Assembly: GCA_004293365.1 (NCBI GenBank)
Contig: RDYN01000024.1
Location: 1-64,000, forward strand
Length of the DNA: 64,000 nucleotides
Direction of reading: 5' to 3'
Source of the DNA: Oscillatoriales cyanobacterium
Lineage (GTDB): Bacteria > Cyanobacteriota > Cyanobacteriia > Cyanobacteriales > Microcoleaceae
Both the position numbers and the translations under genes were made by a program. Below are positions 10,029 to 16,403 of the stretch, piece after piece; position 1 is the first letter of the stretch, and every line of letters starts with the position of its first letter. A model generated the notes under the pieces. That model saw nothing but the letters and a program-made list of their open reading frames with translations, was not told the origin of the DNA and did no database searches.

Positions 10029-10052
10029 AAGGGTTTGATTTAACCGCAGATG

Positions 10053-10097
10053 AACGCAGATGAACGCAGATTAGTGTAAATCATCTGCGTTTTTTTA
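10053..10097 (+). terminator. Rho-independent terminator after ftsH
   Basis: AACGCAGATGA at 10053-10063 pairs with TCATCTGCGTT at 10081-10091 and is followed by a run of T. The left arm belongs to an AACCGCAGATGAACGCAG repeat (two units in tandem), so a dispersed repeat has supplied the terminator. Confidence 0.75.
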
Positions 10098-10512
10098 TTG
10101 CAAATTAAGCGAGTAATTTTTGATTTTTTTATGATTTCAGCCCTACGATCGAATATGTCGCTGCATCCGGGGCGATCGCAAAAATGCTCGAATTCTTATC
10201 AGAATTATCTGGTGCGGGTGAGTTCAGCCGCTATAGAGGTATTTAGTATTAAAAATAACTTACTATACTTAAGTGACTACCGTACCAACAGACGTGGCGT
10301 TCCGAGGTGATATCGCTCGCCTCATTACTATGATAGAGGTGTCTTTACTCCTGAGAGCAACGCGCCATCCCGTGTTCCGCAGTAACACAGGCTACAAAGA
10401 AGTCAAGCGGGTTACTGTATCACTGATATAAGTAAATTTTGCCTAAAAACTATTGCTAGTGGTACTCAACCTGTGAGATTATTGGGCGAATAAAGTTAAT
10501 TGTCGCTAAGCT
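10098..10512. other. Intergenic region without supported gene
   Basis: About 415 bases between the ftsH terminator and the NERD gene. A 70-codon frame at 10098-10310 has no recognisable motif, no good ribosome site and repetitive HIP1-type bases, so I do not call it. The last ~100 bases are AT-rich and probably carry the promoter of the two-gene unit that starts at 10513; no clear boxes were identified. Confidence 0.6.
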
Positions 10513-13188
10513 ATGACTGTTCGGGTATATAGAACACAGCCTTACGAGACCACCCATGAGAATCGTTTATTCGATGCCTTGCGAAAGGAATTGGCACGGG
10601 CGTGGGGCGATGCAGAAGATTTGATAATTCTGCTAGGAAACTTCTACTGCCACGGCAGCGAAATTGATGCAGCAATTCTGAAGAAAAACAGCATTATCAT
10701 CATCGAGTTCAAAGACTACGGCGGACATATTAGTTTTTCAGAAAATGGGCCGTGGTTTGCAGGTGATGTCGAGGTTAAAGGTGGCAGCAAGCTCAATCCA
10801 TTTATTCAAGTTAAAGATAACAAGTTTGCGCTAATCAACAGATTAAACGAAATTAATTTTCCGTCATACAGACAACAAAAATTAGGACATATCTCTGGGT
10901 TAGTGCTTTTTCACAAACCGATAAATTTTAACGATATACAGATACCACCCAAGATTGACAGGTGGTTTCATGTAGTTGATTTCGATCGCGCTATAGAACG
11001 GTTATCTCAAATTACTAGCCGAGAGATTAATCTTTCTAATCAAGATTTGGAATACATTGTCACGGATATTGCCATTCCTGAGTATGTACCTGTAGAATTG
11101 GGTGTCAGAGCGATTCCTGCTACTTTATCAGCAGTTAACACGACTAAACTTGAGTTGCCTGAGTGTCTAGAATCTGTCGTTTATCGCATTGAGCAATTTT
11201 TAGCTTCCTCAAAGAAGATTTTAATCGTTACTGGAATGATTGGAACAGGTTTAAATATTCTGCAAAAAGCTATTGGAGATATATCCAGATCGTTAGGTCG
11301 AAATTGCTCGGTGCTTGCCCCTAACAGTAAAATTGCGTCTCTTTATCCAGTTGAATCACAAAGTATTTACTCACATATTTTTTCAATAAACTCTAAATTA
11401 GAGAAGGATCTGGTTGTCTATGGATTGAAAAAAAATGAGGATACAGACAAACAAGTTTACATCGTCGGTGATGCCCACCTGATATCGGATTCACTGTTTC
11501 AGACTGATGTTTTTCGTTATGGTAGCGGGCAAGTTCTCACGGATTTTCTGGAATATACCGATATCAAAGAGAGCAAAAGACAGGTAATTTTTATGGGCGA
11601 TCCATTTCAGATAAGCAGAGGTAAAACTGATGAATCAGCACTATGTTATGAACGCTTGCAGGCTGCTATCGGTGGTGAGATAGAGTTAATCAATCTTGAT
11701 TTTATACTTCCAGGCGAAGAGCAAAATTTGTTTGTAAGAAATTGTCAACAACTGGCTAAAAGTATAAGTTGTGGCAGATTTAATCACCTCGCAGCCATAG
11801 CCGATTCCTCGCATTGCATCCAAATAGTCGATAGCTGCGATCAACAAGAGGTATCGAAAGCTGCATTTCTTGAGAATTCCAAATTTACCAAGTTTATAGT
11901 TTTCTCCAACGAATCGGTTAACCGCATCAATAATCATGTTAGGAAAAAGTTTTTTTATCGAGGGAAAGACCTCGTTGCTGGTGATATTGTACATATACAT
12001 AATAGTCCTGTCGAAGTAGATGAACAAAAGTTAGAGCGAACTTACATATCAAGTAACTCTTTTGCTGAAGTCATAGAAGTTGACACAAATATTTCATCAT
12101 TAATACAACCGCTTAAAGGACGCGAACATCCAATTAGGATAGACTTTTTGCGTATTCGAGTGCGGCTACTTCACAACGGTAAAGAGGTCAAGTTTTTATG
12201 CTTAAACGATTATTTGTATGCGGATAAGCCGGAAGTGTCAAAGGACACACTTTTAGCTTTGCGTGTTTCGGCAACAAACAGATTTAATCAACAGTGGAAA
12301 CAGGGGACAGAATCAGAAGAATCGGATAAATCTAGCGAATTAGCCAAGTTTCTACGCAACGATCCATACTTCAATGCAGCCCATCTGAGGTTTGGGTACG
12401 CACTTACCCTGCATCGCGCACAAGGAAATCAGTTTCAAACTGCGATCGCTAATATGGAGACTGAGCAAGGACAAACAAATGCCACTTATTTTCGATGGGT
12501 TTATACCTTATTTTCTGTAGTAACAAACCGACTTCTACTCGTGAACTTCCCCTCAATTACACCATTTTCCAAGGCAACTTGGGACGGCAATCAAGGAAAG
12601 CTAGATTCTGTTGTTTGTAAGAATCTCATTGCATTCGATCCTGATTCAGACTTGAAAGAAGATACAACTATTTCACCTTTCGATATACCGTCAAAACCTT
12701 TAAGAAATCTTTACTTTAATATCGTGCAAAGTCTCCGGACTCACCGTATAAAAGTAAATTCATGCAATCATCATAAGTGGATAGAAGTTTACGATTTTGG
12801 GTCGGAAGACGGTAAAAAAAGCTGTTCTATGCGTTTGCATTATAATGGCAAATTTCATGTGACTGGAATTAAAACTGTGAGTTCTGATCCTATTGAGTTT
12901 TCCGACATAGTTCGTAATGCTATTACATCATCAAATGTGCGATTTGATAATGAATTTCAAGAAACAGTTCACGCTTTAATTAAACCAAAAATGGAGCGAC
13001 ACCAAATAGCGATTCAGGGAATTGAACACCATGATTTTCACGAAATTTACTATCTCTACTCAGAAATTGGCTCGCTCAAAATGCAAGTTTTCTACGCTGG
13101 AGATGGTTTTGTTACAAGAGTTATCCCAATTGGGTACACAAATTTAGAAATCGAAAAATTAGTTCGCAAAGCACTGGAGTTAGAATAA
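10513..13188 (+). CDS. NERD nuclease domain fused to degenerate SF1 helicase
   Basis: An 891-aa protein. Residues ~12-115 form a NERD nuclease-like domain with the PD-(D/E)XK signature: Glu50 and Asp52 (SEIDAAIL), then Glu65-x-Lys67 (IIIIEFKDYGG), and NPFIQVKDNKFAL. Residues ~220-700 have the layout of a superfamily 1 helicase. Motif III (VIFMGDPFQ, ~358-366) and motif V/VI-like segments (FGYALTLHRAQGNQF ~628-642; VVTNRLLLVNF) are present. Walker A reads GMIGTGLN (241-248), lacking the Lys-Thr, and Walker B reads YIVGDAHLI, lacking the acidic partner. It may therefore not hydrolyse ATP. Residues ~743-875 contain two copies of a small alpha/beta unit. Its stop overlaps the next start by one base (TAATG), so the two are translationally coupled. 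A defence or conflict role is inference. Confidence 0.75.
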   Translation: MTVRVYRTQPYETTHENRLFDALRKELARAWGDAEDLIILLGNFYCHGSEIDAAILKKNSIIIIEFKDYGGHISFSENGPWFAGDVEVKGGSKLNPFIQVKDNKFALINRLNEINFPSYRQQKLGHISGLVLFHKPINFNDIQIPPKIDRWFHVVDFDRAIERLSQITSREINLSNQDLEYIVTDIAIPEYVPVELGVRAIPATLSAVNTTKLELPECLESVVYRIEQFLASSKKILIVTGMIGTGLNILQKAIGDISRSLGRNCSVLAPNSKIASLYPVESQSIYSHIFSINSKLEKDLVVYGLKKNEDTDKQVYIVGDAHLISDSLFQTDVFRYGSGQVLTDFLEYTDIKESKRQVIFMGDPFQISRGKTDESALCYERLQAAIGGEIELINLDFILPGEEQNLFVRNCQQLAKSISCGRFNHLAAIADSSHCIQIVDSCDQQEVSKAAFLENSKFTKFIVFSNESVNRINNHVRKKFFYRGKDLVAGDIVHIHNSPVEVDEQKLERTYISSNSFAEVIEVDTNISSLIQPLKGREHPIRIDFLRIRVRLLHNGKEVKFLCLNDYLYADKPEVSKDTLLALRVSATNRFNQQWKQGTESEESDKSSELAKFLRNDPYFNAAHLRFGYALTLHRAQGNQFQTAIANMETEQGQTNATYFRWVYTLFSVVTNRLLLVNFPSITPFSKATWDGNQGKLDSVVCKNLIAFDPDSDLKEDTTISPFDIPSKPLRNLYFNIVQSLRTHRIKVNSCNHHKWIEVYDFGSEDGKKSCSMRLHYNGKFHVTGIKTVSSDPIEFSDIVRNAITSSNVRFDNEFQETVHALIKPKMERHQIAIQGIEHHDFHEIYYLYSEIGSLKMQVFYAGDGFVTRVIPIGYTNLEIEKLVRKALELE

Positions 13189-14615
13189 TGTCGAATTTAA
13201 GCGAAGAAATTACTAATTTGAGAAAAGCTGGACAGATAGATCGAGCCTACTTCAGAGGATACGAACTACTGAAAGAGCATCCAAACGACGAAAGGCTTGC
13301 TAACAGTATTGGTTGGGTTCTCTATGAAAAAGTAAAAAGAAATGTAGAGGCTGCTAAGCAATCTCAATCGATAGAGACAAATATGTCTGTCAGCCAACTC
13401 AGGGAAATATTGGGAGAGTATTACAAACTCAAGCTGCTGCGACGACCTGATTTACTTTTTAGTCTTTTACTATCGCAAACCCTTCGATTTCCACAGGAAC
13501 TCAAGTTTTTACCCAAGTTCATAAAATGGGCTGGTATTGACAGTTTTCGAGCGGAAGATTTTCAGGTTTCTACTGGTAAGGATGGTACAGTTTTTGAGTC
13601 ATTGGTTGAAAAAACAGCAAGAGAAGTGGGAAAGATTGCTTGCGAATTGACAGCCCAAGAGTATCCCGATCAACGAGAATTACAAAATTTTGCAGTTAAA
13701 CTGATCGATGTTGCACTCGATCGCGCCAAAGTTCAAAAACCGGAATGGCTAAATTATCGCAAGGCTTTATTGCTAAATCGTTTGGGGCGATCGCCCGAAG
13801 CTCAAAAACTTCTGGTTTCTTTTGTCAAGCAGAAGCGTAGCGATTACTGGGCGTGGCACGCATTAGCTAAAGTCGTGGAAACTTCCGATCCTCAACTAGC
13901 GTTAGCACTTTGTGCAAAAGCGTGTTTGACTTGCAGGGATGAAAATTTTGGTGTTAGTGTTTTTGAGGATCTCAGCCGACTCGCAGCAAATAGAGGACAA
14001 GAGAAAGTTGCTAAATGGGCTGCCGATCGAGCTTTTACTATTCGTAACAATAACGGATGGAAAGTCCCCCAATCCCTCCGCAATCTCTTGACTGCTAGTT
14101 GGTACAATCGTGCAGGAAATTTGTCTAACGCGGAGGAAGTGTTAGCAAATATAGCTGCTGATGCAGAAAAGGTGATTTGGCAAAATTGCCCGCGATCTCA
14201 TGCTAACTATCTGGAAACCTTTGTGGCAAAATCTGGAACAAGAATGGTCGAATTTGGACGGCTGTATAATGGTGTATCTGAAAAACTTGTTAGTCCTGAG
14301 CGAGGAATGCTGAAGAACTTAAATCTGAGACTGGGCGATCCGGTGACGGTGACTGTTGATGACAGTGGCGATCGCCTAACAGTTGTTGCGGTTGAGAAAC
14401 GTGAATCAGGTAAGCTCTTTGATAGTGTGTCTCATAAAACTGGTCAGTTTCGCTTGTGTCAAGGTCGTGATTTTGGGTTTGTAGATGATGTTTATGTTCC
14501 TTCTGAATTAGCGTGTCAGTTGCAGAACGATCAAAAAGTTAATGTTGCTGTTGTGAAAAAATTTGACAAAAAGAAAGAAAAATGGGGTTTGAGTGCGATC
14601 GCCATACTTAATTAA
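13188..14615 (+). CDS. TPR-like helical protein with C-terminal OB/cold-shock-like region
   Basis: A 475-aa soluble protein coupled to the NERD-helicase gene. Residues ~1-340 are helical with repeat-like segments (for example PEWLNYRKALLLNRLGRSPE and WAWHALAKVVETSDPQLAL), as in tetratricopeptide proteins. From about residue 352 the sequence turns to beta strands: GRLYNGVSEKLVSPERGML, LGDPVTVTVDD and RDFGFVDDVYVPSELA. The last resembles a cold-shock/OB strand pair and could bind nucleic acid. I recall TPR plus OB partners in predicted conflict loci with helicases (possibly DUF7017), but cannot verify that here. It likely works with the upstream protein, as scaffold or RNA/DNA sensor. Confidence 0.65.
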   Translation: MSNLSEEITNLRKAGQIDRAYFRGYELLKEHPNDERLANSIGWVLYEKVKRNVEAAKQSQSIETNMSVSQLREILGEYYKLKLLRRPDLLFSLLLSQTLRFPQELKFLPKFIKWAGIDSFRAEDFQVSTGKDGTVFESLVEKTAREVGKIACELTAQEYPDQRELQNFAVKLIDVALDRAKVQKPEWLNYRKALLLNRLGRSPEAQKLLVSFVKQKRSDYWAWHALAKVVETSDPQLALALCAKACLTCRDENFGVSVFEDLSRLAANRGQEKVAKWAADRAFTIRNNNGWKVPQSLRNLLTASWYNRAGNLSNAEEVLANIAADAEKVIWQNCPRSHANYLETFVAKSGTRMVEFGRLYNGVSEKLVSPERGMLKNLNLRLGDPVTVTVDDSGDRLTVVAVEKRESGKLFDSVSHKTGQFRLCQGRDFGFVDDVYVPSELACQLQNDQKVNVAVVKKFDKKKEKWGLSAIAILN

Positions 14616-14853
14616 ACTGATGTAAGGTGTACCCACAAGCACCCTACAGTCTGTTTTTACACAGTCTGCTTGTTTGCGATCGAATCGCAGCCATCAGCCC
14701 TTTTTGCGGCGGCTGTTGAGCTATTTCGTAGGTGCGGATATGTCTGTTTTTTGATGGATAATGGGGGATTTGTGAGGCGGCGTACCTAACTATTGTGTAG
14801 TGCGGATATATCAGATGTACAATTTTTTGGGGGATTTTTGATGGAGCCGCACC

Positions 14854-15117
14854 CTACCGGGGCTTCGGAGCAGGTGCCCCCCCCCGCAACATTCCTTCTG
14901 TACTGAGGTCTTCATCGATTTCTTCCCAGTGAATGCCATAACCTCCTCCACATACTTCCCATTGTGCCCTTTGCTCGGGAGTTGCATTAAACAATCTTGG
15001 ATACCAAATTAAAGGCACGGTAATGGTTCGTCCATCCATTAAATCAACACTAATTGTTTCTTCGGTAAAATGAATGTGTTTAACTCTCTCGTCCGCTCGA
15101 ATCTCCGAAATACCCAT
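14854..15117 (-). CDS. DUF2442 domain protein
   Basis: An 87-aa protein with the DUF2442 layout: VKHIHFTEETISVDLMDGRTITVPLIWYPRL followed by a short acidic segment (HWEEIDEDLS) typical of the family's C-terminus. DUF2442 proteins often lie beside DUF4160 genes and are suspected toxin-antitoxin components, but no function is proven. Here it follows the Panacea-type pair on the same strand after about 70 bases. The C-terminal GGAPAPKPR tail overlaps a C-rich run (14878-14886) and may be extended by slippage in that run. Confidence 0.8.
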   Translation of the reverse strand: MGISEIRADERVKHIHFTEETISVDLMDGRTITVPLIWYPRLFNATPEQRAQWEVCGGGYGIHWEEIDEDLSTEGMLRGGAPAPKPR

Positions 15118-15188
15118 AAAAATATTGACTCAATAAGTTTTTTATTATACGATCTAATATTGGTTAACTGCTACCAAATTACGATGTT

Positions 15189-15623
15189 TCAACTATAAAG
15201 ATTGTGGTCGGGGTCTAGCCAAACAATATAAAAAATATTTTCACTAAAAAATCCATGCACCCTACCGTATTCATTAGCAGATATTTGAAACTGGTAGGGA
15301 ATATTGACTAGCTCATCTTCATTGGGAATTCCGAAACCATTAGGCTCTGTTGTATCTTGCCATGCTATGCCATGACAGCGCAGGCTTTTACTCTGATTAT
15401 TGATGATTTCTTGAGAATTCAATTGTGATAAATCCCGCAGCCTTCTCAAGAGAGATGCTAGATATCTAGAATCTCGGCCTGCTAGTGAAAATTTATCTTT
15501 GTCATCCTGATAGTACCTGAAAGAAAAACTCACTCCTTCGGGTATTTTTACATCTTGACGCTTGATACTAGATAAGGATGGCTGGCGGCGTATATCTGCC
15601 TTTTTAGGTTTCTTCGATGACAC
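15189..15623 (-). CDS. Probable toxin partner of the Panacea-domain antitoxin
   Basis: A 144-aa protein encoded directly downstream of, and overlapping by 20 bases, the Panacea (DUF4065) gene. It has a basic, probably disordered N-terminus (SSKKPKKADIRRQPSLS), then a compact domain with VSFSFRYYQDDKDKFSLAG and a C-terminal FYIVWLDPDHNLYS. In known PanAT pairs the small gene next to the Panacea protein is the toxin, and toxins vary widely. No known toxin fold is recognised, so the role is inferred from position; the C-terminal phrase VWLDPDHNLY recalls uncharacterised cyanobacterial toxin-like proteins. Confidence 0.6.
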   Translation of the reverse strand: MSSKKPKKADIRRQPSLSSIKRQDVKIPEGVSFSFRYYQDDKDKFSLAGRDSRYLASLLRRLRDLSQLNSQEIINNQSKSLRCHGIAWQDTTEPNGFGIPNEDELVNIPYQFQISANEYGRVHGFFSENIFYIVWLDPDHNLYS

Positions 15624-16080
15624 GGGTTTTGTAAAATTCTTTCATTAATTCCTTGGTAATAATAGCATGAGAAGGTTCATCTTTTGGCAAGTTACCTCTA
15701 GCCTTAATCCAGGGGTCTTCGCGTCGTACCATCAATTCCAGCTCGTAAGCATCGCAAAAAAAATACTCATCGGATAATTCGTCTAAAAACTCTTGTACAT
15801 CTTCGGGAAACTCTGGTTTTTCGACTTCCTTGAGAATTGGCTTAAACCCAAATTCTTCTTTGTATTCGTAAAATAAAGTCGGGATAGTCGGCCCGTGCAC
15901 CCAGGCTTCAAAATCCTCATCAAAAAGCGGTGTATCTTCAAAGGCTAGATACCATGCTTGGGCGTAGTACAAAAGTTTTTGGAGCTTGTGGTTGCTGAGG
16001 TAGGAGCCTACGTCATTGGCAAACCAAATGTAGTAATCTGCTAGTTGGGAGGCTGTTGTTACTGTAGTTATTGTGGTCAT
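15604..16080 (-). CDS. Panacea-domain (DUF4065, SocA-like) antitoxin
   Basis: A 158-aa protein with the full Panacea signature: LADYYIWFANDVG near the start, then SNHKLQKLLYYAQAWYLAF, EDFEAWVHGPTIPTLFYEY and a C-terminal helix ending ITKELMKEFY. These proteins neutralise diverse toxins; the Caulobacter relative SocA acts as a ClpXP adaptor for SocB. It is the upstream gene of an overlapping pair, matching the usual antitoxin-first order. Expression is probably autoregulated or coupled through the overlap, but no operator was identified. Confidence 0.88.
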   Translation of the reverse strand: MTTITTVTTASQLADYYIWFANDVGSYLSNHKLQKLLYYAQAWYLAFEDTPLFDEDFEAWVHGPTIPTLFYEYKEEFGFKPILKEVEKPEFPEDVQEFLDELSDEYFFCDAYELELMVRREDPWIKARGNLPKDEPSHAIITKELMKEFYKTRVIEET

Positions 16081-16403
16081 ATAACTTGAGTCAATATGTT
16101 TTGTATTCTATCATATCATAATTATCTACTATATTAAACTAGATTACCTGCTCTCAAGAGGCAGCAGAGTCGCAATATATCACATTTCCAGGCTCTGCCT
16201 GGAAACAAGATTAATGCACTGATAGCACGCAAAGAAACCGGGTTTTTACCTAATCTCTCGACTCCGACGAAGGATATTCGTAAAAAACCCGGTTTCGGAC
16301 TCACATTGCAAAGAAACCGGGTTTTTAGCTAATCTCTCGACTCCGACGAAAGATATTCGTAAAAAACCCGGTTTCTGATTACCCCTCCAGATGAGTGTAA
16401 ATC
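16081..16403. repeat. Two GAAACCCGGTTTC-type hairpin units between genes
   Basis: Two near-identical units (about 16231-16296 and 16311-16375) each carry GAAACCGGGTTTTT, a ~38-base spacer, and AAAAACCCGGTTTC. Each can form a long hairpin. They lie between the divergently placed Panacea gene and the 3' end of the radical SAM gene, and may serve as its terminator. The remaining bases show no gene. Confidence 0.85.

Follow-up and report, generated by a model that had tools for sequence, protein, structure and literature searches.

What use does a nuclease have for a helicase that has lost its motor? The question is raised by two adjacent genes in a 64,000-nucleotide stretch of an Oscillatoriales cyanobacterium contig (all of it referred to here as the window), which encode a fusion of a NERD nuclease with a superfamily 1B (SF1B) helicase fold and, directly downstream, a helical-repeat partner (Table 1). 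A reading made from the letters alone, the sequence-only reading, had proposed two coupled open reading frames overlapping by one base, with intact nuclease residues, a helicase that is ATPase-dead by motif, and a partner joining helical repeats to an OB-like end. Each of these features was recovered: the partner begins on the last base of the first frame, D52, E65 and K67 are readable within a D...[DE]xK signature under a Pfam NERD match, the helicase part has a UvrD_C_2 match (E=1.2e-6), and the partner matches DUF7017 (E=4.5e-40), S1CSD-TOTE-2 (E=4.4e-14) and, below threshold, TPR_14. What had been overlooked is a C-terminal pair of TBP-TOTE lobes in the fusion protein (overall PF22721 match, E=8.8e-21), which places the pair among the TOTE systems. 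New here is the finding that, by motif, the whole cyanobacterial branch of this system retains a predicted ATPase-dead helicase beside a NERD domain with intact residues.

Judged by its domains, the pair is already catalogued, as a TOTE conflict system and as the PADLOC phage-defence candidate PDC-M16A/B. The novelty first attributed to it did not survive, since PADLOC models both genes (PDC-M16A at 1247 bits and PDC-M16B at 719 bits) and the Pfam domains carry the TOTE name. The M16A and M16B genes are adjacent, both match very highly with M16A covered at full length, and there is no family-level difference from PDC-M16; one of its profiles (PDLC04469) stands for the cyanobacterial branch itself. 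TOTE stands for TPR, OB, TBP and Effector (Aravind, Iyer et al. 2022; definition taken from PMC12458937), and all four components (4/4) are present by similarity: a TPR-like repeat protein, an OB (S1/CSD) domain, a TBP-like domain and a NERD effector. The window pair thus has the TBP-TOTE and S1CSD-TOTE Pfam domains, the TPR-like partner and the nuclease effector in common with TOTE systems, whereas, set against them as the citing paper presents them, it has a pseudo-enzyme helicase and NERD as its effector. TALON (PMC12458937) likewise has a NERD nuclease together with proteins of the TPR-CSD and TBP kinds, but its helicase is of the YprA family, used with a NERD nuclease and with TBP encoded by separate genes, where M16A places NERD, an SF1B fold and TBP in one protein. 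Mokosh was ruled out, as the NERD part alone matches MkoA, over positions 14-133 of 1607 in the profile.

Cyanobacterial relatives were collected through genome searches and one contig scan, and the P-loop was counted in the close-branch copies that keep this region (n=14: the window, G002, G007, G021, Calothrix, a Prochloraceae metagenome-assembled genome, Pseudanabaena, Lyngbya, G378, G642, G442, G049, G797 and a Leptolyngbya plasmid pseudogene). All 14 of 14 are ATPase-dead by this motif, with GTGL or GTGI at the P-loop and the variant IATGL in the pseudogene. In the window copy, as the sequence-only reading had noted, Walker A reads GMIGTGLN and Walker B IVGDAH, while GDPFQ (residues 362-366) and YALTLHRAQG (629-638) remain; R400 and R669 are lost too, so that M16A has none of the Walker A GxxxxGK[T/S], Walker B DE and motif VI Arg signatures of an active SF1 helicase. 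By comparison, GxAGTGKT, DEAS, RQ and YTxxTR are kept by all plasmid, phage-record and viral-contig relatives from Proteobacteria, Campylobacterota, Bacteroidota and Rhodothermota. K247, T248, D319, R400 and R669 are invariant in these relatives, whether they carry DUF4145 or are plain; none of the five survives in any of the aligned dead-clade proteins (9 of 9). They belong to a set of 24 positions changed in all nine, out of 74 that are invariant in ten active proteins; another 27 of the 74 are unchanged in all nine. Position 669 is V or I in the whole dead clade, which retains G241, G244-G246, D363, Q366 (the Gln of GDxxQ), T632, Q637 and Y664-T665 and has gained invariant residues of its own at H322, F365, R369, P400 and F641. 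On the nuclease side, D52 and K67 are identical across all aligned NERD-bearing members, and position 65 is D or E.

Such changes could in principle mark a gene in decay, and broken cyanobacterial copies do exist: the one on the Leptolyngbya plasmid is truncated with an early stop, and the M16A gene of G797 (L199) is split by an inserted stretch encoding a transposase-like protein. The window copy, however, is full length, and its inactivating changes are common to the whole clade; homologues with an intact Walker A exist but lie outside it. Among diverged pairs, the ratio of nonsynonymous to synonymous substitution rates (dN/dS) is 0.19-0.39 in the dead helicase 1A domain and 0.13-0.34 in NERD. 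Because the loss is fixed in the clade and dN/dS, at about 0.2-0.4 over the dead domain, is well below 1, the window copy is not simply decaying; that explanation is contradicted already and we consider it extremely improbable. The claim that an inactive helicase is being kept under selection thus stands, and the sequences describe the dead-clade helicase as a different, conserved protein and not as an eroding one. Conservation of the P-loop frame might instead mean that the fold still binds nucleotide in an unorthodox way, acting as a slow or nucleotide-gated switch and not independently of ATP: G241, G244, T245 and G246 (GxxGTG) are invariant, and the position of the catalytic Glu (320) is acidic, D or E, throughout the dead clade. 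Yet no aligned member retains the Lys, the Thr/Ser, the Walker B Asp or either Arg, and the operon has no second source of a motor, which makes such a switch unlikely.

The PADLOC profiles were used as a stand-in for families whose sequences were not fetched, by substituting active residues into window fragments and recording the change in score. Restoring Walker A changed the score by -4.0 bits (PDLC04469), -2.5 (04471), +5.8 (04474), +5.2 (04470) and +9.6/+9.6/+9.7 (04475/04472/04476); the corresponding values were -6.3, -5.2, +1.3, +1.3 and +7.8/+7.8/+7.9 for Walker B, and -2.8, -2.5, +0.5, -3.1 and +5.7/+5.6/+5.6 for motif VI. Overall, scores for 04472, 04475 and 04476 rose by 5.6-10.8 bits. 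By this probe, 04469 and 04471, the cyanobacterial profiles, stand for ATPase-dead proteins and 04472, 04475 and 04476 for active ones. For PDLC04470 and PDLC04474, the remaining profiles with NERD, the ATPase motifs seem to be mixed or in part degenerate, which is suggestive only; all three NERD-bearing profiles favour D52 and K67. In one contig scan and in genome searches centred on cyanobacteria, no sequences of the PDLC04470 or PDLC04474 type were found outside cyanobacteria, and viral scans with the window protein and with NERD-clade patterns were empty. One viral scan returned mainly generic SF1B helicases, and its matches were not used, whereas the long matches of another scan were; stand-alone NERD-like proteins (L007, L022-L024) and a RecD-like fragment (L014) were set aside as not M16.

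In a maximum-likelihood tree of the helicase region, ten dead proteins form one group (support 100/99), and this group lies on the same side of a 100/100 branch as a divergent cyanobacterial protein, G703, whose exact place is less sure because of its long branch. G703 carries NERD (IDFKNFGG), both Walker motifs (A, GTTNSGKS; B, VDEA) and the Arg of motif VI, and has no motif IV RQ. As this NERD-bearing protein keeps ATPase motifs, NERD came first, with the ATPase lost later and probably once; a rule that NERD occurs only with a dead ATPase was dropped, since both Walker motifs and motif VI are intact in G703. Elsewhere the N-terminus differs. Active proteobacterial forms have DUF4145 there (E=4.8e-6 in a Klebsiella protein), a HEPN-family domain (PMC3710099), and in the forms from Chryseobacterium, Rhodothermus and phage records the N-terminal domain is lacking. 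This domain is therefore exchangeable, as an effector would be. Acinetobacter plasmids widely carry a NERD protein that stands alone, with no helicase part, and shares about 32% identity with the NERD part of the window protein (L042:6001-6837).

The genomic setting bears on what the pair is for. In four genomes of the window's genus it lies between ftsH and a DUF4070 radical-SAM gene, and an FtsH-linked housekeeping role, for instance in membrane proteolysis, would fit the fact that ftsH adjoins all four copies. The pair is absent from this site in the further congeners (0 of 18), however, most of which keep both flanks with other cargo, and in other genera it sits in unrelated neighbourhoods, so that the ftsH adjacency is conserved within the genus only. 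Absence from most relatives argues strongly against a housekeeping function, and we regard one as very improbable. The alternative cargo at the ftsH site (L173-L190) comprises SocA/Panacea, PIN-domain proteins, NB-ARC ATPases, a NACHT-associated helical protein, DUF6932 with a helix-turn-helix-like neighbour, and a transposase. In G378 the pair lies inside nifH, between the N- and C-terminal NifH halves, on an element of about 8.4 kb that contains a tyrosine recombinase and has the 15-bp direct repeat CCGTGAAGGTAAAGC at both edges. The nif interruption elements covered by the survey PMC4874684 have this layout. At heterocyst formation the G378 element would be excised. Of 5426 E. coli genomes, 53 have the active-type pair; it occupies 29 sites on chromosomes and 24 on plasmids, never below 99% identity. 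One E. coli pair (L191:1-28361) occupies a chromosomal island beside clpA, with the anti-phage gene hhe nearby. In its patchy distribution the pair matches a mobile conflict system.

Mobile elements might carry the pair for their own benefit (addiction, maintenance or competition between elements) and not for phage defence of the host. Its carriage on a nifH interruption element that encodes a tyrosine recombinase speaks for this, as do the plasmid-borne active relatives, which adjoin stbA, and the E. coli island copies, which are accompanied by a tyrosine recombinase; defence systems are typically carried in the same way, however, and one chromosomal E. coli copy has hhe as a near neighbour, so we think this rather unlikely. 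The description of the neighbourhood as a defence island held in part: a DUF2442 gene and a SocA/Panacea antitoxin-like gene lie downstream of the pair (both by Pfam), and the pair behaves as mobile conflict cargo, but outside the ftsH-radical-SAM interval most genes scanned are ordinary (FtsH, M48 peptidase, URO-D and a histidine kinase), and there is no classical island. The SocA/Panacea gene (15189-16080, - strand) overlaps a MAG6450-like gene, a match below the cut-off, and several congeners have this stretch but no M16.

Table 1. Features of the M16 locus. Coordinates are window positions; no strand is given for the last two rows, and the last row lies in G378.
Feature	Position	Strand	Evidence
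PDC-M16A / TOTE protein, NERD + SF1B pseudo-helicase (predicted) + 2x TBP-like, 891 aa	10513..13188	+	PADLOC PDLC04469 1247 bits over residues 1-890; Pfam NERD, UvrD_C_2, TBP-TOTE
NERD nuclease domain, residues 16-133	10558..10911	+	PF08378 E=6.6e-9, above cut-off; D52, E65, K67 intact
SF1B (Dda/RecD2-like) helicase core, residues ~214-700, ATPase motifs lost	11152..12612	+	alignments; Foldseek top match T4 Dda E=1.2e-10 on low-confidence model
Degenerate Walker A GMIGTGLN, residues 241-248; L247, N248 vs K, T in active relatives	11233..11256	+	sequence; lost in all dead-clade members
Degenerate Walker B IVGDAH, residues 317-322; G319, D320 vs D, E in active relatives	11461..11478	+	sequence, alignment
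Motif III FMGDPFQ; GD and Q kept	11590..11610	+	sequence, alignment
Motif IV region, Arg400 replaced by Pro	11695..11715	+	alignment
Motif V GYALTLHRAQG, mostly retained	12394..12426	+	sequence, alignment
Motif VI region, Arg669 replaced by Val	12487..12519	+	alignments
TBP-TOTE lobe 1	12694..12918	+	PF22721 E=9.5e-9, over cut-off (genome search)
TBP-TOTE lobe 2	12952..13161	+	PF22721 E=3.1e-11, over cut-off (genome search)
PDC-M16B / TOTE partner, TPR-like helical repeat + S1/CSD (OB) domain, 475 aa	13188..14615	+	PADLOC PDLC04483 719 bits; DUF7017, S1CSD-TOTE-2; AlphaFold2 model; TPR matches
Variable interval, ftsH to DUF4070 radical-SAM gene	10040..16400		M16 pair here in 4 congeners, other cargo in others
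Region of the nifH interruption element with M16 pair	L141:9358-18683 (G378:C1, 62001-82000)		NifH halves, direct repeat, tyrosine recombinase

The AlphaFold2 model of M16B (mean predicted local distance difference test score, pLDDT, 79) displays a helical repeat followed by a beta end and matches TPR proteins. Matches of the M16A model in the PDB back an SF1B/P-loop core only, and in one search the Dda rows tie with ordinary AAA+ rows. T4 Dda and RecD2, both SF1B, are among the closest solved folds or sequences to the helicase core; they keep their ATPase motifs and have no NERD or TBP. TBP lobes are a double-stranded nucleic-acid-binding module that is also found in the anti-phage RNase RnlA (PMC7221094, PMC3710099), and a weak RnlA match of the low-confidence M16A model, not localised within the protein, is consistent with them.

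We see an even chance that the window pair represents a cyanobacterial subtype of the TOTE-type PDC-M16 system that works as follows. NERD, a PD-(D/E)xK-type DNase, would be the effector, and the SF1B helicase a pseudo-enzyme whose fold is retained as an ATP-independent binding module. This fold, the TBP lobes and the TPR-OB partner would together recognise invading nucleic acid, for example single-stranded DNA, forks or DNA-RNA hybrids, and recognition would position or license NERD to cut it. The dead helicase would then probably be a sensor or clamp and not a motor, much as the sequence-only reading had suggested in proposing that it feeds the nuclease. RecC and AddB, in RecBCD and AddAB, have helicase folds that are inactive and serve to read Chi. 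The proposed division between sensor and cutter is likened to them as a functional analogy: a helicase fold without ATPase, in complex with nuclease activity, in a likeness of design with no claim to sequence membership. More tentatively, and at less than an even chance, the branch may be a motor-less defence lineage in which the ATPase-dead fold gates the fused NERD as an ATP-independent, RecC-like sensor that evolved independently inside a TOTE system.

Several points weigh against such a coupling of dead sensor and nuclease. The dead helicase is not required by NERD, as G703 combines NERD with a retained ATPase. Conversely, 2 of the 14 close-branch copies (G002 and G007, both congeners) have lost NERD and keep the dead helicase: they carry a clean in-frame deletion, with the upstream sequence and start codon joined straight to residue 211 onward and the rest of the frame open. 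This absence is a loss, since G021, the sister of G007, keeps NERD, and hence either NERD is not always required or these copies have lost function. For the G002-G007 pair dN/dS is 0.68 against a background of 0.37 (one-sided binomial p=0.025, Fisher p=0.26), and with the latter value relaxed selection after the NERD loss is not established. The NERD-helicase-TBP model is of low confidence (mean pLDDT 51) and too poor for any domain-domain contact to be argued from structure. Finally, a literature search found no paper testing PDC-M16, so that the anti-phage or nuclease activity of M16 has the standing of a candidate.

Pairings of a helicase with a nuclease are common in defence systems, and what the motor contributes is frequently unclear. 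In this case one family holds all the forms: an active helicase with a HEPN-like domain, NERD with an ATPase, NERD without one, and a dead helicase without NERD. These natural variants make it directly testable whether a motor is needed for sensing or for processing, and if the proposed mechanism is true, the natural NERD-deleted alleles would be a ready-made separation of sensing from cutting.

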